Of a stretch of DNA of 37,808 nucleotides, positions 1,132 through 34,099 are shown in pieces. The notes under the pieces were generated by a model, which made no database searches, was not told the DNA's origin, and saw only the letters and a program-made list of their open reading frames with translations. The position numbers were made by a program, and so were the translations under genes. Source of the stretch: Actinomycetota bacterium (GTDB lineage: Bacteria; Actinomycetota; Acidimicrobiia; Spongiisociales; UBA11373); NCBI GenBank assembly GCA_016870535.1, contig VGBK01000009.1, positions 1 through 37,808 of the forward strand, read 5' to 3'. Each line of letters begins with the position of its first letter. Within the stretch, counting starts at the first letter, position 1.

Positions 1132-1584
1132 ATGGAGCCGGCCCTCGAAGAGTTCTACGCCAAGTTCCGGGTGGTGGAGCTGGCCATTCTCGAAACCCCG
1201 TTTTGGACCTGGTCCGTCCGGCCGGCGCAGCCGACTCTGGGGGCGGGGGTCATCGCGTTGAAGCGTCACGCCTTTCGCCTGGCGGACGTCACCGCCGAAG
1301 AGATGGTCGATCTGGCCGGTCTGGTGGGGGAGGTGGAGGCCCGCCTCGCTTGCTGCTTCGGCTACCAGATCATGAACTACCTGATGCTCATGATGGTGGA
1401 TCACCACGTGCACTTCCACGCCCTTCCTCGCTATGACGGTCCGCGCGAGTTCGCCGGCCACGACTGGGTGGACGCCGGCTGGCCGGCACTCCCGGCCTTC
1501 GGCGATGCGCAGCACGCCGATGCCCCTCACCTGTTGCTCGACATCAGGCGAGTCCTGCAGGAGGCGGGAAACCTCACGAGGTAG
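1132..1584 (+). CDS. HIT-family (histidine triad) hydrolase
   Basis: A 150-residue protein of the HIT superfamily, nucleotide hydrolases or transferases acting on dinucleoside polyphosphates and nucleoside phosphoramidates. The core order fits: GVIALKRHA (strand and Lys, residues 39-47), an ADVTAEEM helix start, Asn82 in MNYLML, then the H-x-H-x-H triad in DHHVHFHALPR (His92, His94, His96). ATG at 1132 is preferred because AGAGG lies about 6 nt upstream; an in-frame GTG at 1126 would add two residues. It is the first gene inside the left direct repeat and converges on the PfpI-like gene. No link to sugar breakdown can be shown. Confidence 0.85.
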   Translation: MEPALEEFYAKFRVVELAILETPFWTWSVRPAQPTLGAGVIALKRHAFRLADVTAEEMVDLAGLVGEVEARLACCFGYQIMNYLMLMMVDHHVHFHALPRYDGPREFAGHDWVDAGWPALPAFGDAQHADAPHLLLDIRRVLQEAGNLTR

Positions 1585-1596
1585 GGTCGGCCCCGG

Positions 1597-1620
1597 CGGA
1601 GGGGCGAAGGCGCCCCACCG
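1597..1620. terminator. Hairpin between convergent HIT and PfpI-like genes
   Basis: CGGAGGGGCG (1597-1606) pairs with CGCCCCACCG (1611-1620) around an AAGG loop with one mismatch; the inner six pairs are perfect GC. It sits 12 bp past the HIT stop and 65 bp past the end of the PfpI-like gene, so it could end transcription from both sides. There is no U tract, which is common in high-GC actinomycetes. Confidence 0.5.
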
Positions 1621-1685
1621 GTGCGCGGCGGGGCATTCGGGCCGGGCCGACATGGGCGACCGTCGATCCGATGGTGGGTTGGGGG

Positions 1686-2186
1686 CTAGCGCAGCGCGGC
1701 GAGAACGGCCCGGACGAACTGGGGCAGGTCATCGGGGACCCGCGAGGTGATGATGGGACCATCGACGACTACCGGCTCGTCCACCCATTGCGCTCCGGCG
1801 TTCCGGACGTCGTCTCGCACCGCGGCGTAGGAGGTGGCGCGACGCCCCCGCAGCACATCGGCGGATATCAGGAGCGAAGGCCCGTGGCAGATGGCTGCTA
1901 CCGGTTTGCCCGCCTCGGCCAGATCGCGAGTCAGGGTCACCATGTTGGGGTCCAGCCGCAGGCTGTCGGGACCGAAGCCCCCGGGCACCACCACACCGTC
2001 GAGCTCATCGGCCCTCACCTCACCTGCCCCGACCTCGGCGCGCACCGGGTAGCCGTGCTTCCCCTTGTACTCGAGGGCCTCAGATCCGACCAGGATGACC
2101 TGGTGGCCCTCTTCCAGCAGTCGGTAGTACGGGTAGAGCAGTTCCGGCTCTTCGAACATCTCCGCTACGAGAACCGCGACGCGCAT
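1686..2186 (-). CDS. DJ-1/PfpI-family protein (YhbO-like)
   Basis: A 166-residue class I glutamine-amidotransferase-like protein of the PfpI/DJ-1 family, whose members act as deglycases, glyoxalases or proteases depending on subgroup. The nucleophile elbow AAICHGPSLLISA holds Cys100 and His101, and VVVPGGFGPD precedes it. The tail around SYAAVRDDVRNAGAQWVDE and IITSRVPDDLP is the usual PfpI/YhbO C-terminus. ATG at 2186 has an AGGAG site 6-7 nt upstream. The open frame runs further up but without family sequence. It lies downstream of the IclR gene on the same strand but 279 bp away. A role in handling reactive aldehydes from sugar breakdown would be reasonable but is inference. Confidence 0.9.
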   Translation of the reverse strand: MRVAVLVAEMFEEPELLYPYYRLLEEGHQVILVGSEALEYKGKHGYPVRAEVGAGEVRADELDGVVVPGGFGPDSLRLDPNMVTLTRDLAEAGKPVAAICHGPSLLISADVLRGRRATSYAAVRDDVRNAGAQWVDEPVVVDGPIITSRVPDDLPQFVRAVLAALR

Positions 2187-2306
2187 GGGAGTCTCCTGAC
2201 CACGACGAGCTGAGCCTATTCGGGGGGCAATGGTAGATGCCCGGGCGCCCGCACCGCCCGGAGCCCTTGCCCGAGTTGTCGCCGATGGCCTCGCACCGGC
2301 CTTGCT

Positions 2307-2335
2307 GGTCGGCGCCGTCTCACTCGGCGCCGACC
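2307..2335. terminator. Perfect 10-bp GC hairpin downstream of the IclR gene
   Basis: GGTCGGCGCC (2307-2316) and GGCGCCGACC (2326-2335) are exact reverse complements around a 9-nt loop. It lies between two minus-strand genes, about 130 bp past the IclR stop, and probably ends the IclR transcript. The only T-rich run, TCCTTTCT, follows it on the plus strand. The rest of 2187-2465 must hold the PfpI-like promoter; nothing else was seen there. Confidence 0.5.
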
Positions 2336-2465
2336 TCCTTTCTGTAGGAGGCTGTACTTGCGGCCCTCCCGGCCGAGCCGAAGGGTTCGAAGCGGCGAAG
2401 CCGCAGGAAGCGCCCATCGCACGGCGACGCCGCGGTTTCACCCGGCGCGGTCAGGATCCGCGACA

Positions 2466-3251
2466 CTACGGCGGACCGTCGGCCCCGAGTTCACCGGCCA
2501 CCGCCTGGGCAGTGGCTCGGACCTCCGGCCCGAACTGGTCGAAGTGGTCGCGGATGCGGAAGTGGGGGCCGGCGGCGCTGATGGCCCCTACCACTTCCTT
2601 CGCAGGCCCGATGATGGCGGCGGCCACACAGGCGCCCAGGGGCTCGGTCTCCCGGTCGTCGGTGGCGTAGCCGCGAGCGCGCACCCGCTGCAGCTCCCGA
2701 CGGAACTCATCGGGGTCGCAGATGGTGCGCTCGGTGCGGCGGACGAAGTCCATCTTCGACAGTCTCTCCTCGAGGGCGTCGTCGGGGAGCGCGGCCAGCA
2801 TGGCCTTTCCGAGTGAGGTGGAGTTGAGGGGCATGGTCTGGCCTATGACCGACACCAGCCGGATGGAGTTGTCCGACTCCAGCTTGTCCAGGTAGACCAC
2901 CGCCGATCCCTCCAGCACCCCCAGATGCACCGTCTCGTTCAGCCGATCGCGCAGGCTGCGCAAGTGGGGGCGGGCGAGGGTGAGGAGATCGAGGCCTGCC
3001 GACGCGGCGTGGGCCAGGTTCAGGATCTTGCCGGTGAGGCGGTACTGACGGCTGACCGGCTCTTGCACCACGTAGCCGGCGGTGATCAGCGTGGCCAAGA
3101 GACGCGCCACCGTGGCCTTGTCCAGAGTCAGCTGCCGGGCGAGGGTGGAGATCCCGAGGGTTCTGCCCTCCGTTCGAGACAGCACCTCGAGCACGCTGAG
3201 GCCCCGGGTCAGGGCCCGGGTAGGCGGTACCTGCGGTGCGGCAGCGGGCAT
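2466..3251 (-). CDS. IclR-family transcriptional regulator
   Basis: A 261-residue IclR-type regulator. The N-terminal winged helix-turn-helix spans about residues 10-75 (RALTRGLSVLEVLSR, then LTLDKATVARLLATLITAGY). The C-terminal effector-binding domain follows, with GSAVVYLDKLE, LNSTSLGKAMLAALP and an RGYATDDRETEPLGACVAA region typical of the family. ATG at 3251 is chosen because a GGGAGGGAGGG site sits 5 nt upstream; a TTG at 3269 would add six residues. It is divergent from the sugar transport and catabolism operon, so it probably controls that operon in response to the sugar or an intermediate. Candidate operators lie at 3344-3368 and 3286-3299. Confidence 0.93.
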   Translation of the reverse strand: MPAAAPQVPPTRALTRGLSVLEVLSRTEGRTLGISTLARQLTLDKATVARLLATLITAGYVVQEPVSRQYRLTGKILNLAHAASAGLDLLTLARPHLRSLRDRLNETVHLGVLEGSAVVYLDKLESDNSIRLVSVIGQTMPLNSTSLGKAMLAALPDDALEERLSKMDFVRRTERTICDPDEFRRELQRVRARGYATDDRETEPLGACVAAAIIGPAKEVVGAISAAGPHFRIRDHFDQFGPEVRATAQAVAGELGADGPP

Positions 3252-3285
3252 GTCGACCCTCCCTCCCAAGGCCTGAGCATAGGTG

Positions 3286-3299
3286 GCCGGTTCACCGGC
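3286..3299. promoter_or_regulatory. Palindrome GCCGGT-TC-ACCGGC before the IclR gene
   Basis: Two exact 6-base arms (3286-3291, 3294-3299) are separated by 2 bases, 35 bp upstream of the IclR start. The position would suit autoregulation. The sequence differs from the nearby GTTTCG/CGAAAC palindrome, and short GC palindromes are frequent at this base composition, so the evidence is weak. Confidence 0.3.
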
Positions 3300-3302
3300 A
3301 AG

Positions 3303-3331
3303 TTGCAGCGTGCCGCCTGTCAGTGTAGCAT
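3303..3331 (+). promoter_or_regulatory. Putative promoter of the sugar operon
   Basis: TTGCAG (3303-3308) and TAGCAT (3326-3331) are separated by 17 bp and lie 58 bp before the binding-protein ATG. They match the sigma-70-type consensus at three and four of six positions. The likely start site, near 3338, falls just before the inverted repeat at 3344-3368, an arrangement that suits repression by a bound regulator. Confidence 0.4.
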
Positions 3332-3343
3332 CATTCAGTGATA

Positions 3344-3368
3344 CTGCGTTTCGTTAGACGAAACGCAG
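3344..3368. promoter_or_regulatory. Probable IclR-type operator, perfect 10-bp inverted repeat
   Basis: CTGCGTTTCG (3344-3353) and CGAAACGCAG (3359-3368) are exact reverse complements around TTAGA. The GTTTCG-N5-CGAAAC core resembles operators I recall for IclR-family regulators. It lies in the IclR/transporter divergent gap, just downstream of the predicted promoter and 20 bp before the first start codon. No second copy was noticed in the window. Confidence 0.65.
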
Positions 3369-3388
3369 CCCGGAGCTAAGGAGGCAGA

Positions 3389-4504
3389 ATGACATTCGCC
3401 AAGCGGACACGCCTGCTGTCCCTGCTGGCGTTGCTCCTCGCCGTCGGACTGGTAGCCGTGGCTTGCGGCGACGATGCCGCGACCACAACCACAGGAGCTG
3501 CCACCACCACCACCGGAGCAGCGGTGGCCCCCACCAAGGTCGCATCCGTGGCCGGTGGGCCGCACCCCTTCTTCGATCCGTGGGGTCCCGGCACCAACGA
3601 CGCGGTGCGTGACTTCGGGTTGGCCGGCGGGACCTACCAGTTCCCGCCCCAGTGGGAGCTGACGGCCCAGAACAACATGGTCGAGACTCTGGTGGCCCAG
3701 GGCTACAACGCCTTCGTCATCTTCCCGGGAGATGCCACCGGAACCAACGCCCTGCTGGGCGAGTTGCTCGCTCAGGGCATTCCGTCCATCGCCGGGGGTG
3801 GCTGCACCAGCGAGCCGTCGCCTGCGGCGTTCTGCCTGGCCACCGACGTGGGCAACTCCGCCTACATCGGCACCAGGGCCCTGATCGCCGCCATGGGCGA
3901 CACCTGCACTGCTGCCGACCCGTGCCAGATCGTGCACATCGCCAGCCGCCTGGTGGACCCGAACACGCAAGCTCGCATCGCCGCGGTCGACCGTGCGGTG
4001 GGCGAGACCAACGGGACCGTAAGGGTCCTCCAGCACCTGACCGACTCCGACGATCAGGAAGCCGCCACCGAGAAGGTCGGCGCCATCCTGGCCTCCAGCG
4101 GCGCCGAGATCGACGGCATGATCTCGGTCGCCTATGTGGGCTCGTCGGTGGCCGCGACCCTGCTGCGCAATCTCGGCGACAAGCGGATCAAGATGATCGG
4201 GATCGACGACGACCCCGAGGTCCTGAGGGCAATCGAAGACGGCTTCCTGGTCGGGACCATGTCGCAGAACCCCTACGGCCAGGCTTACCTGGGCTCCTGG
4301 GTGCTCGACAAGATCCGTCACGGCTGCACCGTCAAGGATGGCGCTCCGTTCCTGGTCGACTCGGGGACCTTCCTGATCACCGCAGACGGCGCCAACGTCG
4401 GCGACGTGCCCAGCACGGCGATTGCCGAATATGTCGAGAAGCGAGTCAACATCACCAACGAGCTGAAGGCATCGTTCGAGGCGAGCTACCTCAGCTGCCC
4501 GTAG
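3389..4504 (+). CDS. Sugar ABC transporter substrate-binding lipoprotein (RbsB-type)
   Basis: A 371-residue binding protein of the ribose/rhamnose/autoinducer-2 type (Peripla_BP_4). A signal peptide ends in the lipobox VAVAC with Cys26, followed by GDD and a Thr-rich linker to about residue 46, so the mature protein is membrane-anchored outside the cell. The fold is typical: an early PHPFFDPW segment, MVETLVAQGYNAFVIFPGD, a hinge-side EIDGMISVAYVGSS, then KMIGIDDDPEVLRAIEDG and GTMSQNPYGQAYLGSW. ATG at 3389 has AAGGAGG 6 nt upstream. It is first in an operon with two permeases and an ATPase, directly after the IclR operator candidate. The downstream enzymes suggest a 6-deoxyhexose ligand; sequence alone does not fix it. 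Confidence 0.92.
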   Translation: MTFAKRTRLLSLLALLLAVGLVAVACGDDAATTTTGAATTTTGAAVAPTKVASVAGGPHPFFDPWGPGTNDAVRDFGLAGGTYQFPPQWELTAQNNMVETLVAQGYNAFVIFPGDATGTNALLGELLAQGIPSIAGGGCTSEPSPAAFCLATDVGNSAYIGTRALIAAMGDTCTAADPCQIVHIASRLVDPNTQARIAAVDRAVGETNGTVRVLQHLTDSDDQEAATEKVGAILASSGAEIDGMISVAYVGSSVAATLLRNLGDKRIKMIGIDDDPEVLRAIEDGFLVGTMSQNPYGQAYLGSWVLDKIRHGCTVKDGAPFLVDSGTFLITADGANVGDVPSTAIAEYVEKRVNITNELKASFEASYLSCP

Positions 4505-4514
4505 CCTGATACGC

Positions 4515-4594
4515 CCGGCCTCTTCGGCCGGAAGGAATGCGCCAGCGTTGGGGTTGGCTACCGGGTCGGTTCCTCCCTCCCGGCGGCCAACCCC
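4515..4594 (+). other. Hairpins between binding-protein and permease genes
   Basis: The 213-bp gap before the first permease holds two inverted repeats. CCGGCC/GGCCGG (4515-4520, 4526-4531) has a 5-nt loop. GGGGTTGGC/GCCAACCCC (4550-4558, 4586-4594) is a 9-bp stem around a 27-nt loop. Such structures often give the abundant binding protein more mRNA than its permeases, through 3' protection or partial termination. No promoter is clear in the rest of the gap. Confidence 0.5.
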
Positions 4595-4717
4595 ACCTGG
4601 CGAAGGACCAGGGGCCGTTGCCCGGAGAACCGGGTCGGTGGCCCGCCCCGGTGAGGAGTGGGATCTCCCGGAGACCGGCAACCTCCCCGGGGGGCCGACG
4701 CAGCATCAGGAGCGAGA

Positions 4718-5767
4718 GTGCGTAGACCCAATTTCATCACCATCTGGGACCGCGCCGGCCTGGCTGTGGTTGTGCTCAGTTCCTGGGCGGTCTTTGCCAT
4801 CTTCGCCGAGGGTTTCACCTCGAAGTTCAATGTCTTCAGCGTGGGTCGCCTGGTTTCCATCCTCATCGTGGTGGGCCTGGCGCAGACGGTGGTAATGGGA
4901 ATCGGCGACATCAACCTGTCGGTCGGCGCCGTCGGGGGCGTCGTAGCCATGTTCTTCGGGTGGCTGGTGGCGCCCACGCAGTTGGGCACCGCCGGCCTGG
5001 CGAGCGGGGCACCGCAGGACGTGACGGCTCTCCCCGGGTTGGGCATCAACTGGCAGTTCGCCTTCATCCTGGCCCTGCTTTTCGGGGCTGCGCTGGGATT
5101 CATCAACGGGTGGCTGATCGTCCGCTCCGGGCTCCACGGTTTCATCGTCACCTTGGGCACCATGGGGGTGTTCAGCGGGTCGATGTACATCATCACCAAG
5201 GTGAAGGCCTTCCGCAATCTCCCGGAAGGATTCCTCGGGTTCGGCAAGATGAAGTTCTTCGACCTCCTTTCCCCACTGGTCTTCATCATGCTGGGGGTCG
5301 TTGTCTTCCTCTTCTTCTTCCTGCGGAGCACGACCCCCGGCCGACAGATGCTTGCGAGCGGCGCCAATCGCCGGGCGGCGTTGGCGTCGGGCATCAACGT
5401 GAACCGGATTGTGATCTCGACCCACATGCTCTCGGCCGCTCTGGCCGGACTGGCCGGGATCATGCTGGCGGCGCGCATCGGGTCGGCCATCCCGACCATC
5501 GGCACCGGCGGCGGCGGCGATTGGCTGCTGCCCTCGTTCGCTGCCTCCGCCATCGGCGGGACTCTGTTCACCGGCGGTTCGGTGAACGTGGTCGGCACGA
5601 TGTTCGGAGGCCTGCTCTTGGGAACGGTGGAGAACGGCTTGAACCTGCTCAGGGTTCCGGGCTTCTGGGTGCAGATGATCACCGGCCTCGTGCTTCTGCT
5701 GGCCGTGATCCTGGACCGCATCCGGGTCGTTGCCGTGGAGCGGAGTCGTATGGGAGCGGCGCAATGA
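4718..5767 (+). CDS. Sugar ABC transporter permease 1 (RbsC/BPD_transp_2)
   Basis: A 349-residue multi-span membrane protein of the ribose/rhamnose permease family. Typical elements are MGIGDINLSVGAVGG in the N-terminal half, GFINGWLIVRSGLHGFIVTL, and the ATPase-coupling loop GANRRAALASGINVNRIV, followed by a hydrophobic C-terminal half. GTG at 4718 is chosen because CAGGAG stands 5-6 nt upstream; the frame stays open to 4658 but that sequence is Pro/Gly-rich and not family-like. Its TGA overlaps the ATG of the second permease, so the two are translationally coupled and probably form a heterodimeric channel, as in RhaP/RhaQ-type systems. Confidence 0.92.
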   Translation: MRRPNFITIWDRAGLAVVVLSSWAVFAIFAEGFTSKFNVFSVGRLVSILIVVGLAQTVVMGIGDINLSVGAVGGVVAMFFGWLVAPTQLGTAGLASGAPQDVTALPGLGINWQFAFILALLFGAALGFINGWLIVRSGLHGFIVTLGTMGVFSGSMYIITKVKAFRNLPEGFLGFGKMKFFDLLSPLVFIMLGVVVFLFFFLRSTTPGRQMLASGANRRAALASGINVNRIVISTHMLSAALAGLAGIMLAARIGSAIPTIGTGGGGDWLLPSFAASAIGGTLFTGGSVNVVGTMFGGLLLGTVENGLNLLRVPGFWVQMITGLVLLLAVILDRIRVVAVERSRMGAAQ

Positions 5768-24810: not shown

Positions 24811-25575
24811 TCAGTCCGCCGTCACCAGGCCGTAGCCGAGACCGAAGACGGCCCGAATGATCCGAGCCCCGGCCACAGACCCTATCCGGAGGCTTCGCGA
24901 GGCTTCCGCCGGGGGCAGCAGCGCCGTAGAGCGCCGCCCCAGCGGCGTGCCGTCCAGGTCGGCCTGCCCCTCCCGCACGGAGAGAAGGCCCCCCTCGCCC
25001 GGTCCTATCGCCCAGTTCAGGTCCGCCCCGGGCTCCAGGGCGGTGTCGGTGAAGCGGCGGACGTCGCAGTGGACCGGGAGGGGGGAGAGAGGGCCCACCA
25101 TCTCCCGGGTGACCACGCCCGATCCTTCCGAGTAGACGGGCATGTCCTCCCGGCGCAGGACCTCGAAGCTGGTCTGCTCGGGTATGGGACTGGTGGTGGC
25201 CACCAGGATGTAGATCTCGGCATCCACCTCGCCGTGGTTCCACTCCTGGTGGATCATGCCGCGCCGGCCTTCGGTGAAGCGGGCCAGGGCGCCCTCCGGC
25301 ACGTGGCCGGCGATGCGGTTGAGGGCGTCGTCGTGGTCGAAGGTGCCCCGCTCCAGGTAGAAGAGGCGCTCGTGATGACGGTGGGGGTGATGGCCGATCC
25401 CCAGGCCGGCCTCGATGATCGAGTCGTGCACCGTGACCAGGGGGCCGCAGGCTCGCACCCGGGTGAAGGGGCCGATGGACTCGATGGCCACGAGGCCCGG
25501 TGTGCCGAATTGGGCCTCGCCGAGCACGGCGTGGTCCTCGGGGGCCAGGACTATGGAGGCGGGGCCGGCGGTCAT
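24811..25575 (-). CDS. Pirin-like double-cupin protein
   Basis: A 254-residue bicupin of the pirin (YhhW-type) family. The first cupin holds GHHPHRHHERLFYLERG (metal site His63, His65 and neighbours) and GMIHQEWN; the second is degenerate, as in many pirins (SVREGQADLDGTPLG). Members include quercetin dioxygenases and redox-sensing proteins; no function is certain. ATG at 25575 has no strong ribosome site. Its first 41 codons and upstream region are duplicated at 28072-28233 as a fragment, with an almost identical 75-bp core. Confidence 0.88.
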   Translation of the reverse strand: MTAGPASIVLAPEDHAVLGEAQFGTPGLVAIESIGPFTRVRACGPLVTVHDSIIEAGLGIGHHPHRHHERLFYLERGTFDHDDALNRIAGHVPEGALARFTEGRRGMIHQEWNHGEVDAEIYILVATTSPIPEQTSFEVLRREDMPVYSEGSGVVTREMVGPLSPLPVHCDVRRFTDTALEPGADLNWAIGPGEGGLLSVREGQADLDGTPLGRRSTALLPPAEASRSLRIGSVAGARIIRAVFGLGYGLVTAD

Positions 25576-25615
25576 CGCGGGGCCGCACCGTAGGCCGCCC
25601 CGCCGCCTACCCAAG
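25462..25615 (-). repeat. Direct repeat DR2, left copy (cupin 5' end and upstream)
   Basis: This matches 28081-28233. The core 25471-25545 differs from 28090-28164 at a single base (25498), while the first nine codons and the region before the ATG have diverged clearly. Fainter similarity continues to about 25685 (compare 28301), so the divergent promoter region was copied with the coding start. Confidence 0.85.
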
Positions 25616-25757
25616 CCGTGCCGCCTCAGTGGCGGGTGTCGACGTCGCGGAGAGGGAGCGGCAGCGGCCGGGAGCATACGCTTCGGGAGGCCCCCGGGCC
25701 GGCCCCCTCCGGGCGCACCCCTCGGCTAGGTTCGCGGGCAGGCATACAGTCCGGGCG

Positions 25758-28004
25758 ATGAAACGCCTGCTCGCCCCTCTGGCTGTCGCTCTGCTCGCTG
25801 CCGCCCTGACGGTGCCGACCGCCTCGCCGGCCCTGGCCGCACCCAGGACCTTCACGTGGAGCGGCGGAGGCCTCACCAACGGATGGGGCGATGCCGACAA
25901 CTGGGCAGGAAAGGAGGCGCCTCCCACCAGCGGGGACACCATCGTTGACCTTTCCGCGGCGGGCGCCACCACGATCACGGGCGCGAGCGGCCAGATCAGC
26001 GAGCTTCGGGCTACCGGCGGCACGATCGTCGAGGGCAGCGGGCTGACCATCACCCGGCGCATCGAGGCGGTCTGTGTGCGCCTCAGCTTCGACAACCTGA
26101 TCGTCACCGGGGGCGGCGATATCGCCGGCGGCGCCATCTACGGCTCCATGACGAACCAGGGGAACATCACCCAGCGGCCGGTGCGGACCCAGGAATGCCT
26201 CAACAGCGATGGCGGCATGAAGACGCCCTCGACCCTGATCTCGAGCGCCGCCGTGCTGACGAACGCGGGCACCTGGCGCGCCAACGGGGCGTGGCTGCTC
26301 GGCAGCAATTGCTGCGGCACTCCGACGTCGAGCCGGGTCGTGAACGAGCCCACCGGCAGGTTCGTCGGTCTGGAGCCGGGCGGTTTCGCCATCAGCAACC
26401 TCGAGTTCCAGAACGCCGGGCGCCTCGAAGGCACGGTGACTCTGGACAACAGCCACACGGTGCTCGAGGGTGGTACCCAGGTCTCGTCGCGCCGCGGTGT
26501 GGCGCCGGGGGCGCGAGTCACCTTGCGGGGTGGGGAGACCACGGTCGAACAGACGTTCACGATCGGGCGCGGCGGGGTTCTGCGGCTCGCGGACGAGAAC
26601 GCACGACTCGTCGGCCCCGGGAAGATCGAGACACCCGCTCTGCCGTCGGACCGGCCTCCGGGGACTCTGCGCTTCGAGGGGGGGCAGGTGCTCGGGTTCA
26701 TCGAAACCGGCAACCGCCTCCGTGTCGAGAAAGCCGGGGCCCGGAAGTTGTTCGTGCGGACGCTCGGCGGTGTGCCGGGGCTCCTTCTGGTCAAGGGCCC
26801 GGCCGCGCTCTCGGGTGCCGGGCCGCTCTCGATCGACGCTCTTGCCGCGGCCAGCTTCCAGGGCGCGGTGACCGTGACGGGCGCGGTGACGGTGGCGGGC
26901 ACTTCCTGCTGTCGCGAGACCGAGATTCCGCTGTTCGATGTGGGGGGCACCATGACTCTCGCCGGCGGCGCATCGCTCGCCGTGGAGTCGGCCCGACTCG
27001 GCCTTGAGGGAGCCATCGCCGGCGCGGGCCGGCTCACGCTCAAGGGCGGGCGCCACTACGTCGGCAACGGGGCGCGGCTGGCGACGCAGACCGTCCTCGA
27101 CGCCAACGCCTTCGTGGCCCTTCCCAACGGCCGCGTGGTCGTCGACGCACCGGTCGAGCAGCGCTTCGCCGACCTGCGCGCTCCCTCGGGTCTGACCAGG
27201 CAGACTCTCCTCGAGGGTAGCGGGTCGTGGACCTGGCGGCGCGGCGACATCCAGGGAGCCGTGGCCCTCGCCATTCCTCTGGTGCTCCCGGCGACCGGGA
27301 CGGAACGGGCGCTTGAAGGGCGCCTGGAACTGCGCGCCGCATCCAGGATCGGTGGCGGGCTCACGCTCTACTTGAGGTCGCGGCTCACGGTCGAGGGCGA
27401 ACTCACGCTCGTCGACGCGGCCATCGATGCCCCCGGCAGTCCCGCCGCCAGGGTCCGGGTCGCCCCGGGCGGCACCCTCCTGGTCAGGGGTTCGCTCCCT
27501 TCGGGGATCCACGGCGCCACGGTGAGCATCGACGGGACGCTCGATCTGCGCTCGGCGGGACTCGACCTCGGTGACGGCACCCTGCACAGCGAGCAGGGAG
27601 ACGTGCGACTCAGGGGGCAGTCGCTGACCGCCCGGAAGGTCACCATCCAGTCGCAGGCGTCCCTCGCCGGCCCGGGCTCGGTCTTCGGCGACGTCGTCGC
27701 GGGAGGCACCGTCAGCATGGCGGCACGCGGTGCACTCGAAGTGCACGGCGACTGGCGCAGCCTGCCCAGGCTGCGCCTCGGACTCACCGCCGCCGGGGAT
27801 CTCCGTGACTCCCTCCGGGTCCAGGGTCACGTAGATCTGGGCGGCCGCCTGACGGTCCTTGGCTTCACTCGGCCGTCCGGGACTCCCACAGTCCTGGTTT
27901 CCGCGTTGACCCGGGGCGGTGTCTTCGATGCTGTCACCGGCATGCCCCCACAGACGGCGGTCGACTACACCAACCGGTCGGTGGTGCTCAAGCGCCTGGC
28001 CTGA
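25758..28004 (+). CDS. Large secreted beta-rich protein, function unknown
   Basis: A 748-residue exported protein. A Sec signal peptide (LLAPLAVALLAAALTVPTA then ALA-A, cleavage near 31) precedes a WSGGG..GWGDADNWAG start like those of autotransporter-passenger and dockerin-linked beta-helix proteins. The body is a long series of short Gly/Val/Leu/Thr strands such as GRLEGTVTLD and GTLLVRGSLPS, and ends in GDLRDSLRVQGHVDLGGRLTV. Two CC pairs (SNCCGT, TSCCRE) and other Cys could form disulfides. No membrane anchor, LPXTG or outer-membrane barrel is seen, so it is released or held non-covalently. It likely folds as a right-handed beta helix. The ATG at 25758 lacks a clear ribosome site. Confidence 0.85.
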   Translation: MKRLLAPLAVALLAAALTVPTASPALAAPRTFTWSGGGLTNGWGDADNWAGKEAPPTSGDTIVDLSAAGATTITGASGQISELRATGGTIVEGSGLTITRRIEAVCVRLSFDNLIVTGGGDIAGGAIYGSMTNQGNITQRPVRTQECLNSDGGMKTPSTLISSAAVLTNAGTWRANGAWLLGSNCCGTPTSSRVVNEPTGRFVGLEPGGFAISNLEFQNAGRLEGTVTLDNSHTVLEGGTQVSSRRGVAPGARVTLRGGETTVEQTFTIGRGGVLRLADENARLVGPGKIETPALPSDRPPGTLRFEGGQVLGFIETGNRLRVEKAGARKLFVRTLGGVPGLLLVKGPAALSGAGPLSIDALAAASFQGAVTVTGAVTVAGTSCCRETEIPLFDVGGTMTLAGGASLAVESARLGLEGAIAGAGRLTLKGGRHYVGNGARLATQTVLDANAFVALPNGRVVVDAPVEQRFADLRAPSGLTRQTLLEGSGSWTWRRGDIQGAVALAIPLVLPATGTERALEGRLELRAASRIGGGLTLYLRSRLTVEGELTLVDAAIDAPGSPAARVRVAPGGTLLVRGSLPSGIHGATVSIDGTLDLRSAGLDLGDGTLHSEQGDVRLRGQSLTARKVTIQSQASLAGPGSVFGDVVAGGTVSMAARGALEVHGDWRSLPRLRLGLTAAGDLRDSLRVQGHVDLGGRLTVLGFTRPSGTPTVLVSALTRGGVFDAVTGMPPQTAVDYTNRSVVLKRLA

Positions 28005-28071
28005 CCTTCCTCTCGAGAGCCTGCGGCTTGGGGTCCGCAATGCCGCGGGCGCACCGCTCGTCTGGCTCGCT

Positions 28072-28194
28072 CCGGACCCTGGTGCAGGGGCCGATGGACT
28101 CGATGGCCACGAGGCCAGGTGTGCCGAATTGGGCCTCGCCGAGCACGGCGTGGTCCTCGGGGGCGAGCACGATCGGCGGCGGATGGACGGTCAT
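28072..28194 (-). pseudogene. 5' fragment of the pirin-like cupin gene
   Basis: From an ATG at 28194 the frame reads 41 codons homologous to the intact cupin, including IVLAPEDHAVLGEAQFGTPG and ending at TRVR, with one change (Phe37 to Cys) within residues 10-41. After TRVR the frame stays open but is unrelated. Both cupin metal sites are missing, so it is non-functional. It has the same orientation as the intact gene, 2.6 kb away on the other side of the secreted-protein gene. Confidence 0.85.
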
Positions 28195-28233: not shown

Positions 28234-28353
28234 AGCCCCTTGAGAGAAACAAGTGTTAACGCCGGGGAAAGGGGGCGGTAACGCGCCGGGGCGTACGTTC
28301 GCCACAGCCCTCGGGGTGTACCCGGGGGGCCACTGTGAGAGTGGAGGCACACG

Positions 28354-30063
28354 TTGAGAGCGAACGCCCTGCGGCGACTGCTCGTCCTGGCAATGATCCT
28401 CGCCTTCGTCGCCGCCGCATGCGGTGACGACGAAGGGGGCGGGGTCACCACGACGACCGCCGCTACCACCACCACCGGTGGGTCCGGCAGCACGACCACC
28501 ACGTCGTCCGGCCAGACCACCACCACCACGGAACCTGCCGAACCCTTCGTCATCGAACCCGGGCTCAATGGGCTCCGGGTCGTCGACGACCTCACCTTCA
28601 CGGTGACGATGACGCAGGCCGATCCCGAGTTCCCGCTGAAACTGGCCTACGCGGGCTACTTCCCCTTGCCCAAGGTCGCCTTCGACGACCCGGCGGCCTA
28701 CGAGGAGAGCCCCGTCGGCAACGGCCCCTTCATGATGGACGGGCCCTGGCAGCACGACGTGGTCATCCCCATGAAGCGCTTCGAGGCCTACGCCGGACCC
28801 GACCCGGCGCAGATCGAGCGTCTGGAGTGGACGATCATCGACAACCTGAACACGGCCTACAACGAGGTCCGGGCGGGCAACCTGGACATCCTGGGGCCGG
28901 CCCTGCCCACCGACCAGATCGCCACGGCTGCCGCCGAGTTCGGCGACCGCTACGGGCTGTCGTCGTCGACCTCGTTCACCTACATGGGGTTCCCTCTATA
29001 CCTGCCCGCGTACCAGGACCCGGATGTGCGCCGGGCCTTGTCGATGGCCATCGACCGGGACCTGATCGTGCAGCAGATCTACCAGAACACCCGCGTGGCG
29101 GCGTTCTCGACCCTGCCGCCCATCTTCCAGGGGGCGCGCGAGCACGTCTGCGACAACTGGGACTTCAACCCCGACGAGGCCAAGGCCCTGTGGGATTCCA
29201 TCGACCATCCCGACTCGCTGGTCGTCTGGTTCAACACCGGCGGGGGCCACGAGGAGTGGGTGGAGGCTGTGGCCAACATGTGGCGCAGCACCCTGGGCAT
29301 CCAGGACATCACCTTCCAGAGCCTGGAGTTCTCGGAGTACCTGCCCCTGCTCGACGCCCAGGGCGGCACCGGGCCGTTCCGCCTCGGCTGGGGGCAGGAC
29401 TACCCGTCGCCGCTGAACTTCCTGGAGCCCCTCTACGCCTCGTACAACTTCCCGCCGGTGGGCTCGAACACCACCTTCTATGCGAATGCGGCCTTCGACG
29501 CGGCCATCGCCGAAGGCAAGGCGGCCGTGGCGGAGAGCGGCGACCTGGCCGACGGAGTCCCCGCCTACCAGCGGGCCGAGGACGTTCTCTGCGCCGATGT
29601 GCCCATCGCCCCGGTGTGGTTCCGCACCAACCAGTACGTCTACACCGAGGGCGTCGGGAACGTCCACTACGACGCCTACAGCGACCTCGGGGTGACCAAG
29701 GTCACCAGCGACGACGGCCTGGTGTCGGTCCAACTCTCCGAGCCGGAGCACCTGTTCCCGACCAACTCGAACGAGTCCAACGGGATCCAGGCGCTGCGGG
29801 CGTTGTTCACCGGCCTGGTGCAGTACGACGCCGAGACCAACGAGATGTTCTTCGCCAACGCCGAGTCCATCACCTCCGAGGACGGCGGCCTCAGCTGGAC
29901 CATCACCCTGAAGCCGGGATGGACCTTCCACAACGGTGAACCGGTGACCGCCTGGTCCTATGTGAATGCCTGGAACTACGGCGCCAACAGCGCCAACGCC
30001 CAGCAGAACAACTCGTTCTACGCCGACATCTCCGGCTACGCCGAGTTGAACCCTGCCGGCTGA
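28354..30063 (+). CDS. Family-5 solute-binding lipoprotein, circularly permuted
   Basis: A 569-residue peptide/nickel-type binding lipoprotein (SBP_bac_5 family). The signal peptide ends at lipobox VAAAC with Cys23; a Thr-rich linker runs to about 62. The body then starts with GLRVVDDLTFTVTMT and SPVGNGPFMMDG, normally about 150 residues into these proteins, and proceeds through VRRALSMAIDRDLI and GWGQDYPSP to the usual C-terminus near residue 450. Residues 457-569 then supply what should be the N-terminus: SVQLSEPEHLFPTNSNES, ALFTGLVQYD, GLSWTITLKPGWTFHNGEPV and AWNYGANSANAQ. Nothing seems lost or doubled. TTG start with GGAGG 6 nt upstream. Four transporter genes follow. Confidence 0.88.
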   Translation: MRANALRRLLVLAMILAFVAAACGDDEGGGVTTTTAATTTTGGSGSTTTTSSGQTTTTTEPAEPFVIEPGLNGLRVVDDLTFTVTMTQADPEFPLKLAYAGYFPLPKVAFDDPAAYEESPVGNGPFMMDGPWQHDVVIPMKRFEAYAGPDPAQIERLEWTIIDNLNTAYNEVRAGNLDILGPALPTDQIATAAAEFGDRYGLSSSTSFTYMGFPLYLPAYQDPDVRRALSMAIDRDLIVQQIYQNTRVAAFSTLPPIFQGAREHVCDNWDFNPDEAKALWDSIDHPDSLVVWFNTGGGHEEWVEAVANMWRSTLGIQDITFQSLEFSEYLPLLDAQGGTGPFRLGWGQDYPSPLNFLEPLYASYNFPPVGSNTTFYANAAFDAAIAEGKAAVAESGDLADGVPAYQRAEDVLCADVPIAPVWFRTNQYVYTEGVGNVHYDAYSDLGVTKVTSDDGLVSVQLSEPEHLFPTNSNESNGIQALRALFTGLVQYDAETNEMFFANAESITSEDGGLSWTITLKPGWTFHNGEPVTAWSYVNAWNYGANSANAQQNNSFYADISGYAELNPAG

Positions 30064-30079
30064 CCCATCCACCGGAGGA

Positions 30080-30107
30080 GTGGGGCGGCCCCTCCCGGCC
30101 GCCCCAC
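30080..30107 (+). terminator. Perfect 11-bp hairpin after the binding-protein gene
   Basis: GTGGGGCGGCC (30080-30090) and GGCCGCCCCAC (30097-30107) pair exactly around CCTCCC, 16 bp past the stop. A run of C, not T, follows. In this place it more likely protects the lipoprotein mRNA or lowers read-through to the permease genes than fully ends transcription. A similar structure follows the other binding-protein gene at 4515-4594. Confidence 0.55.
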
Positions 30108-30186
30108 CCCCCCAACCCGCAACGCGGCTGCAACCACCAGAAGGTATCGATCGTGTCCACCCAGCGAGGGAAACGGTAGGAAGGCC

Positions 30187-31110
30187 ATGGGTCGCTACCT
30201 GATACGCCGCCTGCTGCAGTTCATCCCCGTCTTCTTCGGGGCCACCTTCCTGATCTTCGTCATGGTGTGGGCCATCCCCGGTGACCCCATCAGGGCCCTG
30301 GCCGGCGACCGCTTTCTCCCCGAACAGGTGCGCCAGGAGCTGCGGGACCGCTACCACCTCGACGACCCGCTGCCGGTGCAGTACGGCAAGTACATGGGCG
30401 GGGTCTTCCAGGGGGACTTCGGCGACGACTTCCGGGGCCGGCCGGTCACCGACCTGCTGGCACAGCGGCTCCCCATCACCGTCCGCCTGGCCCTGCTGGC
30501 CTTCGGCTTCGAAGTGGTGCTGGGCATCGTCGCCGGCATCCTCGCCGGAGTGCGCCGGGGGGGCTTCATGGACAACCTCGTCCTGGTGTCCACCCTGGTG
30601 GTGATCGCCATTCCCATATTCGTGCTGGGGTTCCTGGCCCAGCTGGTGATGGGGGTCAAGTTCGGCTGGTTCCCCGTGTCGGGGGTGCAGCGCGGCCTCT
30701 ACAGCTACCTGCTCCCCGCCATGGTGCTGGGCTCGGTGTCGCTGGCCTACATCGCCCGGCTCACCCGCACCAGCCTGATCGAGAACCTGCGCGCCGACTA
30801 CGTGCGCACCGCCACCGCCAAGGGCCTGTCGCGCCGGCGGGTGGTGGGCATTCACACCTTCCGCAACTCGATGATCCCGGTGGTCACCTTCCTGGCCATC
30901 GACCTGGGTTCCCTGATGGGAGGGGCCATCATCACCGAGACCATCTTCAACATCCCCGGCCTGGGCCGGGCCGTCTTCGAGGGGGTGCAGCGCCAGGAGG
31001 GCACCGTGGTGGTCGGCATCGTCACCTTCCTGGTCGTGGTCTACATGGTGGCCAACCTGCTCGTGGACGTCCTCTACGCCGTGCTGGACCCGAGGATCCG
31101 CTATGAGTGA
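30187..31110 (+). CDS. Peptide/nickel ABC transporter permease, DppB-type
   Basis: A 307-residue inner-membrane permease with about six spans. It begins MGRYLIRRLLQFIPVFFGA, has the family PGDPIRALAGDR loop after the first span, LRADYVRTATAKGLSRRRVV ahead of the ATPase-coupling region, and GGAIITETIFNIPGLGR near the end. The start ATG has AGGAAGG 3-4 nt upstream. The last eight bases overlap the next permease gene. The substrate (peptide, nickel chelate or oligosaccharide) is set by the binding protein and is unknown. Confidence 0.94.
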   Translation: MGRYLIRRLLQFIPVFFGATFLIFVMVWAIPGDPIRALAGDRFLPEQVRQELRDRYHLDDPLPVQYGKYMGGVFQGDFGDDFRGRPVTDLLAQRLPITVRLALLAFGFEVVLGIVAGILAGVRRGGFMDNLVLVSTLVVIAIPIFVLGFLAQLVMGVKFGWFPVSGVQRGLYSYLLPAMVLGSVSLAYIARLTRTSLIENLRADYVRTATAKGLSRRRVVGIHTFRNSMIPVVTFLAIDLGSLMGGAIITETIFNIPGLGRAVFEGVQRQEGTVVVGIVTFLVVVYMVANLLVDVLYAVLDPRIRYE

Positions 31111-32044
31111 CCGCGACCGCGAACGCCCGTCCCCCGGTTCGCCGGCTCACGCGGGCCCCACCTTCGAGGAACTCGAGGCCGAGCCGATCATCCGCCGCGA
31201 GGGCAGCCTCTACGCCGACGCCTGGCGCCAGTTGCGGCGGCGGCCCATGTTCATCATCTCGGGGATCCTCATCGTGATCCTGGCCCTGATGGCCATCTGG
31301 CCGGGCCTGTTCACCCGGGCCGATCCCCGGGCCTGCAGCCTGGCCGACTCCTTGCTGCGACCCAGCGGCGAGCACTGGTTCGGGACCGACGTGCAGGGAT
31401 GCGACTACTACGCCCGCACCATCTGGGGGGCCCGGGTCTCAATCACCATCGGGGTGCTGGTCACCGCCTGCTCCACCCTGATCGCAATGCTGCTGGGCTC
31501 GATCGCCGGATACTACGGAGGCTGGGTGGACGCGGTGATCGCCCGCCTCACCGACATCTGGTTCGCCATCCCCACCATCCTCGGGGGCATCGTGATCCTG
31601 CGGTCGATCTTCTCCACCCGCGGCCTCCTGCAGGTCAGCCTGGTGCTCATCGTGCTGGGCTGGCCCACCATGCTGCGCCTGGTGCGCTCGGCGGTGATGG
31701 CCACCAAGGAGATGGACTACGTCGATGCCGCCCGGGCGCTGGGGGTGCGCCCCTTCCGCATCATCCGGCGCCACATCCTGCCCAACGCCATCGCCCCCGT
31801 GATCGTCTACGCCACCATCACCGTGGGGGTGATCATCTCCGCCGAGGCGGCGCTCTCCTTCCTGGGGGTGGGTCTGCAACTGCCCGCCATCTCCTGGGGC
31901 TTGATGATCAGCGTGGCCCAGAACCGCATCCTCACCGCCCCCCACCTGCTGCTCTTCCCGGGAGCCCTCCTCTCGGTGACCGTGTTCTCCTTCATCCTGA
32001 TGGGCGACGCCCTGCGGGACGCCCTCGACCCGAGGTTGCGCTGA
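31103..32044 (+). CDS. Peptide/nickel ABC transporter permease, DppC-type
   Basis: A 313-residue partner permease. A charged cytoplasmic N-terminus with a WRQLRRRPMFIISG entry to the first span is followed by HWFGTDVQGCDYYARTIWGA, the marker segment of DppC/OppC proteins. The coupling loop YVDAARALGVRPFRIIRRHI and the terminal LRDALDPRLR complete it. An extra Cys pair (ACSLADSLL, QGCDYY) lies on the outer loop and might form a disulfide. It overlaps dppB-type by 8 bp and the ATPase gene by the ATGA motif. Confidence 0.94.
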   Translation: MSDRDRERPSPGSPAHAGPTFEELEAEPIIRREGSLYADAWRQLRRRPMFIISGILIVILALMAIWPGLFTRADPRACSLADSLLRPSGEHWFGTDVQGCDYYARTIWGARVSITIGVLVTACSTLIAMLLGSIAGYYGGWVDAVIARLTDIWFAIPTILGGIVILRSIFSTRGLLQVSLVLIVLGWPTMLRLVRSAVMATKEMDYVDAARALGVRPFRIIRRHILPNAIAPVIVYATITVGVIISAEAALSFLGVGLQLPAISWGLMISVAQNRILTAPHLLLFPGALLSVTVFSFILMGDALRDALDPRLR

Positions 32045-33087
32045 TGGCCACCACCCTGAGCCGAGATGCCGTCGCCGGCCGGCCGGTAGATCCGGCGGCC
32101 CCTCTGCTGGCGGTCGAAGACCTGCGCGTCGAGTTCCGCATCGACGCCGGCACGGTGCGGGCGGTGAACGGCCTCTCCTACACCCTGGGGCGGGGGGAGA
32201 CCGTGGCCATCCTGGGCGAATCGGGCAGCGGCAAGAGCGTCGGCGCCCAGGCGGTGATGGGCATCATCGACAGCCCGCCGGGCTTCGTCACCGGGGGTTC
32301 GGTGCGCTTCCGCGGGGTCGAACTGCTCGACCTGCCCGAGGCGGAGCGGCGCCGGGTGCGGGGCAACCGGATGGCCATGATCTTCCAGGACGCCCTCACC
32401 GCGCTGAACCCGGTCTTCCCGGTGGGCTGGCAGATCGCCGAGATGTTCCGCATCCACCGCGGCCTGCCCCGCAAGGCGGCCGGGGAGAAGGCCATCGAGT
32501 TGATGGAGCGGGTGAAGATCCCCTCGGCCCGCGTGCGGGCCGGCTCCTACCCTCACGAGTTCTCCGGCGGCATGCGCCAGCGGGTGATGATCGCCATGGC
32601 GCTCTCTCTGGACCCCGAGATCCTGATCGCCGACGAGCCCACCACCGCGCTCGACGTCACCGTGCAGGCCCAGATCATGAGCCTGCTCGCCGAGTTGCAG
32701 CAGCAGACCGGCATGGGGCTCATCCTCATCACCCACGATCTGGGGGTGGTGGCCGAGGTGGCCGATCAGGTGGTGGTCATGTACGCCGGGCGCGAGGTCG
32801 AGAAAGGGCCCAGCCTGCCGGTCTACCACCGGCCGGCGCACCCCTACACCCTGGGGCTCATGGACTCCCTGCCCCGCCGCGATGTCCACACCGAGCGGCT
32901 GCGCCCCATCAAGGGCTCGCCGCCCGACCTGCTGGCCATCCCGCCGGGCTGTGCCTTCCGGCCCCGCTGCCCCTACGGGCGCGAGATCTGCGCCCGGGAG
33001 GAGCCGCCTCTGGCTGCGGTGACCTCCGACCGCATCTCCGCTTGCCACTTCTGGGAGGAGGTGTCCCGTGAGCGCGCCGGCGCCTGA
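32044..33087 (+). CDS. Peptide/nickel ABC transporter ATPase, DppD-type
   Basis: A 347-residue ABC ATPase. Walker A GESGSGKS is at 58-65, signature [14 protein letters not shown], Walker [13 protein letters not shown] and switch His in LITHDLGVV. The C-terminal oligopeptide-transporter domain holds four Cys ([18 protein letters not shown] and SACHFW), the set that binds a [4Fe-4S] cluster in some Dpp/Opp ATPases. It pairs with the next ATPase to power the permeases. The ATG overlaps the dppC-type TGA; the end overlaps the next gene by 20 bp. Confidence 0.94.
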
Positions 33088-34099
33088 GCCCGTCCACCAC
33101 GGCGAGGTGGTGCTCCGGGTGGAGCACCTGGTGAAGCACTTCCCCATTACCCGGGGCATCGTTCTGAAGCGCCAGATCGGCACGGTGAAGGCGGTGGACG
33201 ACGTCAGCTTCGAACTGCATCGGGGCGAGACCCTGGGCCTGGTGGGGGAGTCGGGCTGCGGGAAGACGACCACCGCCCGCACCATCCTCCGGCTGGAGAA
33301 ACCGACCGCCGGCCACGCCTGGTATCGGGGCCGGGACATCTTCACCCTGTCGGGGGAGGAGATGCGCGCGCTGCGCCGCGAGATCCAGGTGATCTTCCAG
33401 GACCCCTACGCCTCCCTCAACCCCCGCATGACCGTGGGCGACCTCATCGCCGAGGGCTGGCGGGTGCATCGGGGGGTGCTGCCCAAGAGCGCCCGGCGGG
33501 GCCGCATCCACGAGTTGCTGGAGCTGGTGGGCCTGAACCCGGATCACATCAACCGCTACCCCCACCAGTTCTCCGGGGGGCAGCGTCAGCGCATCGGGGT
33601 GGCCCGGGCCCTGGCCCTGGAGCCCAGCATCGTCATCTGCGATGAGCCGGTGTCGGCCCTGGACGTATCGGTGCAGGCGCAGGTGGTGAACCTGCTCGAG
33701 GACTTGCAGGACGAACTGGGCCTGTCGTACCTGTTCATCGCTCACGACCTGTCGGTGGTGCGCCACATCTGCGACCGCATCGCGGTGATGTACCTGGGCA
33801 AGATCGTGGAGACCGGGGACGAGTTCCAGGTCTACGACGACACCGCCCATCCTTACACCACGGCCCTCCTGTCGGCGGTGCCCATCCCGGACCCGGCGGC
33901 CCGGAACCTGGGCAATCGCATCTTGCTGGAGGGCGATGTGCCCAGCCCGGCCGACCCGCCCAGCGGCTGCCGCTTCCGTACCCGGTGCTGGAAGGCCCAG
34001 GAGGTCTGCGCCGCGGCGGAGCCGGAACTGATCGACCGGGGCCAGGGCCACCCGGTGGCCTGCCGCTTCGCCCAGATGGAGTTCGACCCGGCGCGGTGA
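33068..34099 (+). CDS. Peptide/nickel ABC transporter ATPase, DppF-type
   Basis: A 343-residue second ATPase of the importer. Walker A GESGCGKT is at 60-67, signature [14 protein letters not shown], Walker [13 protein letters not shown] and switch His in FIAHDLSVV. The N-terminal [17 protein letters not shown] is the DppF/OppF pattern, and the C-terminal Cys set ([20 protein letters not shown]) is present. GTG at 33068 is the start, inside the preceding gene, with GGGAGGAGG 6-7 nt upstream. It closes the transporter operon. Confidence 0.94.

Follow-up and report, generated by a model that had tools for sequence, protein, structure and literature searches.

Natural circular permutation of a DppA-type substrate-binding lipoprotein and its probable recurrence within family 5

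Substrate-binding proteins (SBPs) of family 5 (SBP_bac_5, cluster C) carry their N-terminal segment straight after the signal peptide and linker. At 28354-30063 on the forward strand of the window, which is the whole stretch of 37,808 nucleotides that was analysed, a lipoprotein gene of this family appeared to carry this segment at its end. The locus raised the questions of whether the rotated order is genuine, whether it belongs to one gene or to several, and how a protein of this kind could have arisen and still serve an importer.

Segment order and junctions of the window gene

The frame at 28354-30063 (+) was uninterrupted over 569 residues, with a TTG start and a TGA stop, and a Shine-Dalgarno-like GGAGG was read directly from the sequence upstream of the start (28342-28346, +). 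A signal peptide with the putative lipidation residue Cys23 (VAAAC) was read at 28354-28422 (+) and the Thr-rich flexible linker, residues 24-65, at 28423-28548 (+); a comparable linker was present in the normal-order relative L026. Cys23 came directly after VAAA and was invariant across the permuted relatives. The single frame with Thr-rich linker described in the original prediction was confirmed by this reading, which also fits its signal peptide and lipobox, the latter called by eye. The protein matched PF00496 with 203.6 bits against a curated cut-off of 32.4. A PF00496 search of the genome DNA placed profile positions 61-365 at 28528-29448, ahead of profile positions 7-67 at 29860-30036. 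The phmmer alignments against the PDB were swapped likewise, with residues 71-437 of the query on residues 130-501 of the Mycobacterium tuberculosis DppA (MtDppA) chain and residues 460-565 on residues 14-118 (total E 3e-72). The canonical middle and C-terminal (M) segment was assigned to residues 66-454 (28549-29715, +; profile 61-365, MtDppA 130-501), and the canonical N-terminal (N) segment to residues 455-569 with the stop codon (29716-30063, +; profile about 7-67, MtDppA 14-118). No second N segment was found by phmmer against the PDB and no long internal repeat by the repeat search, in agreement with the proposed clean permutation without large loss or duplication. Each segment was present once, the order was rotated, and homologues existed in both orders, which met the criteria for a circular permutation; the canonical linear order was not met. 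Judged by its sequence, the window protein is a permuted variant of SBP_bac_5 and not a canonical member.

The junctions were mapped by aligning a doubled copy of the window protein with normal-order relatives. The C-to-N fusion, VTKVTSDD followed by GLVSVQLSEPEH, was located at 29692-29745 (+) by alignment with L026, L028, and L032, and the swap point at about D454/G455 (29716) had been predicted correctly. The normal L026 protein ended in DINYTEIRVVP and its mature body started with APEGVFSTFIIEPEHL, whereas the window protein read DLGVTKVTSDDGLVSVQLSEPEHL across the fusion, which indicated that the old ends were joined without leftover signal peptide or linker. At the cut loop, the window protein ended in ELNPAG before the stop codon and started with EPFVIEPGLNGL. 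L026 was uninterrupted in this region (GYDEVNPAEGDPTAETLSGLAVVDD) where the window protein stopped at GYAELNPAG and started at EPFVIEPGLNGLRVVDD, so the cut fell within one loop. The length of this loop was variable among the normal relatives, and L028 had a long insertion there.

The predicted order was also sought in homologues and was found in eight further assemblies, with 47-88% identity to the window protein (L009/L018, 88%; L010/L019 and L011/L020, 64%; L021, L022, L023, L024, and L025, 47-55%). All of these proteins were encoded in single open frames and stopped within a few residues of one homologous place, and the records stemmed from different studies, with sequence names (k87, k127, and NODE) that pointed to several assemblers. 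Comparison of the window gene with L009 gave a dN of 0.068 and a dS of 0.364; the overall dN/dS of 0.19 varied little between the two segments and the fusion, all of which are under purifying selection. An assembly artefact, created by misjoining of one normal gene or of two in tandem in a metagenome, could be imagined because the draft genome consisted of 322 contigs and tandem SBP genes can yield one-piece matches without permutation, as in Phyllobacterium, but even without mapping of raw reads it was untenable in view of the same order, ends, and single open frame in these independent assemblies, the purifying selection across the fusion, a second permuted family in about 50 genomes, and another cut site that recurred in three genomes, two of them with few contigs.

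Permuted families, cut sites, and their origins

The original prediction took the gene as singular; it was instead one of a set of permuted families. A second permuted SBP_bac_5 paralogue was encoded in the same genome (C48, L002, 983-2764); it was 29% identical, was cut at the site of the window protein, and had a dppBCDF operon of its own. Of the 395 sampled genomes of the class, about 50 gave a single unbroken match to this second family (permB), and reading of the individual frames verified the order in about 30 separate loci. Few candidates were scored per genome, so that all frequencies are lower bounds. Trees of re-ordered sequences were inferred by rapid searching and contained some long branches. 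They placed the family of the window gene (permA) deep inside normal-order DppA-like proteins and permB elsewhere; the nearest normal-order relatives of permB within the set were L107 and L108. Trees of the M segment alone and of the N segment alone agreed that permA lay inside normal-order relatives. A single clade of permA and permB was rejected (AU p 2e-5), and the trees and AU tests indicated that permB arose separately from permA. The direction from normal to permuted was assumed because normal order prevails in the PDB and across phyla.

A scan of the phylum flagged further permutant candidates, whose frames were then read directly. At site 2, the protein of L117 (G485; 2207-4069, -), from a genome outside the class of the window, had the order M151-380, N, M1-148, and the 3' end of the same form was found at a contig edge in G716 (L140/L148). 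Site 3 was represented in three genomes (L116, 2455-4242, -; L125, 1447-3084; L126, 1363-3081) with the order M222-376, N, M1-215, and L125 and L126 were 77-79% identical to L116. These proteins ended in INPWE and had FGLAFNADGGH at the start, where a normal relative read PWEGTFSIAYNSDGGH. Their normal-order relatives were about 70% identical, and the site-3 permutation is a recent event common to the three genomes. Site 4 was found in one genome (L130, 1264-3024), with a short tail at the end of the protein (NDAKKAVRAAAG). Sites 2 and 4 were each represented by one complete gene. The motif TKADG occurred at the C-N fusion in both the site-3 and site-4 proteins, though the tree separated them. 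A protein from another class, L137, had the site-1 form, and its union with permA was not rejected (AU p 0.26). All of L117, the site-3 loci, L130, and L137 headed a dppBCDF operon.

The tree required six changes between normal and permuted order, or five if L137 was counted with permA. One origin for sites 3 and 4 was rejected weakly (p 0.026). The unions of sites 2, 3, and 4 (p 3e-9) and of permA, L137, and site 2 (p 2e-6) were strongly rejected. Outside the phylum, a plasmid record of Subdoligranulum variabile (Bacillota; OY725879.1) contained a site-1 permuted family-5 SBP (L151, 2830-4620) in a 596-codon frame that adjoined two ATPase genes; in this protein the N segment was followed by a tail rich in Ser and Ala. 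Among other plasmid-borne proteins, its best relatives were at most 47% identical and gave two-piece alignments that were read as normal order, so that L151 would probably represent a further independent event; this rests on one unannotated record that is absent from the tree. A one-piece match on a Phyllobacterium plasmid was discarded as a permutant, as it consisted of two neighbouring normal genes.

The sequences imply at least five, and probably six, independent origins of permutation in the family. If permutation had happened only once, in the distant past, all permuted forms would go back to that event and their normal-order relatives would have reverted; this reading would account for the identical cut site of permA and permB, the shortness of all fusions, the TKADG motif common to sites 3 and 4, and the possible union of L137 with permA. 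It is nevertheless very unlikely, since four different cut sites were found, the permA-permB clade and both larger unions were rejected (that of sites 3 and 4 only weakly), both segment trees placed permA inside normal-order relatives, and reversal would need repeated re-permutation to the exact ancestral ends. Family-5 SBPs are quite probably a hot spot of permutation, with these events spread over four cut loops and two phyla, importer genes beside nearly all checked loci, and the normal gene replaced in the best-sampled cases.

Predicted fold and importer operon

AlphaFold (AF2) was run on residues 60-569 with 25 permuted sequences. The permuted model had a pLDDT of 91.4 and a pTM of 0.87, with poor order in the first nine residues only and a well-ordered fusion; the normal-order control L026 had a pLDDT of 91.7. 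When the helix/strand string of the permuted model was rotated so as to begin with the first N-segment strand, it matched that of the control at 0.985, against 0.71 without rotation. The top Foldseek matches of the permuted model were family-5 proteins. Against MtDppA (Rv3666c; PDB 8wd9, 7jls, and 6e3d), itself a member of SBP_bac_5/cluster C, the alignment covered about 395 columns for the permuted model (TM 0.66) and about 525 for the control (TM up to 0.88). Foldseek preserves chain order in the alignment, and the shorter alignment was expected from rotation of the same fold. MtDppA was similar to the window protein in fold family, by both sequence and Foldseek, and in the kind of transporter, with 31% identity over the Foldseek-aligned part, but it had the N segment first. 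The two-lobed, three-domain family-5 fold is thus predicted to be kept despite the rotation, and the old C- and N-termini appear to adjoin in space, which was inferred from the confidence of the model without any measured distance. In OppA and DppA, both termini are in domain I, which explains why their fusion is tolerated. All four cut sites lay between helices and strands, according to the element list of the model and residues mapped by hand.

The gene was also predicted to head an intact five-gene importer operon, and this was borne out by a dppA(permuted)BCDF arrangement whose two permeases and two ATPases were of Dpp/Opp type. The repeat search found a GC-rich hairpin (30074-30113, +) downstream of the SBP gene and ahead of the first permease gene. 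It was followed on the same strand by permeases of the DppB/OppB type (30187-31110; PF00528, PF19300) and the DppC/OppC type (31103-32044; PF00528, PF12911), both identified by profile match, and by ATPases of the DppD/OppD type (32041-33087, start approximate) and the DppF/OppF type (33068-34099). Elsewhere in the window, a 122-nt direct repeat with 87% identity was present at 25454-25575 and 28073-28194, near both ends of a forward-strand ORF (25500-28004); the permuted gene starts a short distance after the second copy. An 804-codon open frame on the reverse strand (25626-28040), antisense to the 834-codon forward ORF, was probably a GC-rich shadow frame.

The five-gene operon was common to the permuted loci L009, L011, and L114 and the normal-order loci L112 and L149, whose permeases and ATPases were 62-94% identical to those of the window. 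The dppBCDF products were 92-94% identical in L009 and 72-79% in L011; in the normal-order L112 the values were 73% for DppB, 71% for DppC, 70% for DppD, and 77% for DppF. In L150, DppB was present before the contig ended. The closest normal-order relatives of the window protein, L026 and L027 (G023 and G030), were 52% identical, had orthologous dppBCDF genes downstream, and were nearest on the tree; they resembled the window protein in operon position, linker type, and predicted fold, and differed from it in having the canonical order. In the relatives search, no member of this sister normal-order group was found in genomes with the permuted gene, and one such genome, G090, had a normal gene of a deeper subgroup only. 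The permuted gene therefore appears to have replaced the normal-order gene at the operon position.

No functional data exist for the permuted protein, and it could in principle have lost its place in transport and be a receptor or other binding lipoprotein that merely lies within the operon. Around the permuted gene of G090 (L115), the 13 kb read contained no match to dppBCDF, and TpMglB-2, a published natural permutant, is a chemoreceptor according to its authors (PMC4990184). This loss of the transport role is unlikely, however, because the window gene, L009, L011, and L114 each headed intact dppBCDF genes, L150 retained DppB, and the permuted gene occupied the position of the normal-order gene with no close normal-order copy found in the genome. 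The observed swapped order, its conservation, the operon, and the separate origins on the tree left little doubt that the window gene encodes a naturally circularly permuted DppA/OppA-type lipoprotein that derives from a normal-order gene and is the substrate-binding subunit of the adjacent DppBCDF importer; its fold is a model, and peptide binding and import, for which there are no binding data, as well as the duplication route, are inferred.

Possible route of permutation and relation to known permutants

The signal peptide would direct export of the permuted protein, Cys23 would carry the lipid, and the flexible linker would serve as a tether. The body would form the usual two-lobed trap, with the old C- and N-termini joined through a short turn. 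The new ends would lie in a variable surface loop, so that the anchor would be attached elsewhere on the body; that such a move costs little may be due to the long linker. The gene would descend from a normal-order one that occupied this place in the operon; an in-frame tandem duplication followed by fusion and trimming is the likeliest way, and duplication of this kind is an accepted route of permutation (PMC3320104). A deletion between the linker and the new start would suffice to keep the export signal in front. Such a route was made plausible by L111 (G119), where two adjacent normal-order SBP genes (1323-3125 and 3129-5060), 74% identical and in the same frame, were separated by one TAG codon, the expected starting state. 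No fused dimers were seen, and the long stop-to-stop frames in L107, L119, and L121 each held one SBP only. A search beside the gene for remnants of a trimmed copy gave no credible match, and the test was noisy owing to low-complexity frames. Domain shuffling or fission and fusion remains possible as the origin, though doubtful: fission and fusion is likewise an accepted route (PMC3320104), and genes that were split for a time could account for there being several cut sites, but no split SBP halves were seen, whereas the same-frame pair in L111 and arrays of four SBP genes in Phyllobacterium supplied tandem copies. Tandem duplication thus remained the preferred route.

Natural circular permutation of a lipid-anchored SBP is known for TpMglB-2 (Tp0684) of Treponema pallidum and its relatives, termed "cluster Bc" (PMC4990184). 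Its authors noted that most such proteins are tethered and suggested that the permuted topology might reflect an adaptation of tethered proteins (PMC4990184). TpMglB-2 differs from the window protein in being a cluster B sugar binder with another fold family and another cut, and one topology has been reported for it against several cut sites in family 5. The window protein did not meet the cluster B sugar-binding fold; its sole transport-family Pfam match was PF00496 and its PDB matches were family-5 proteins. DNA methyltransferases and saposin/swaposin are natural circular permutants for which a permutation-by-duplication model exists (PMC3320104); they are unrelated and have no N-terminal export signal and lipid anchor to keep in front. 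No report of permuted family-5 proteins was found in the open literature, subscription papers being outside the search.

Reports of large exported proteins that are circularly permuted in nature are rare, and here permutation recurred within one family. Profile methods silently break the permuted genes into two matches, so that the rotation is missed in annotation. Close normal-order sisters exist for the window gene (52%) and for the site-3 proteins (about 70%), and both orders occur in orthologous operons. With these pairs one can ask whether moved termini and a moved lipid anchor affect binding, permease docking, or folding, and by what steps duplication leads to permutation. For the design of permuted peptide sensors, the different cut sites found in nature offer guidance. 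If the family is indeed a hot spot, its members would offer a series of natural cases from which to read, and on which to test, what is lost and gained when the ends and the membrane anchor of a protein are moved.
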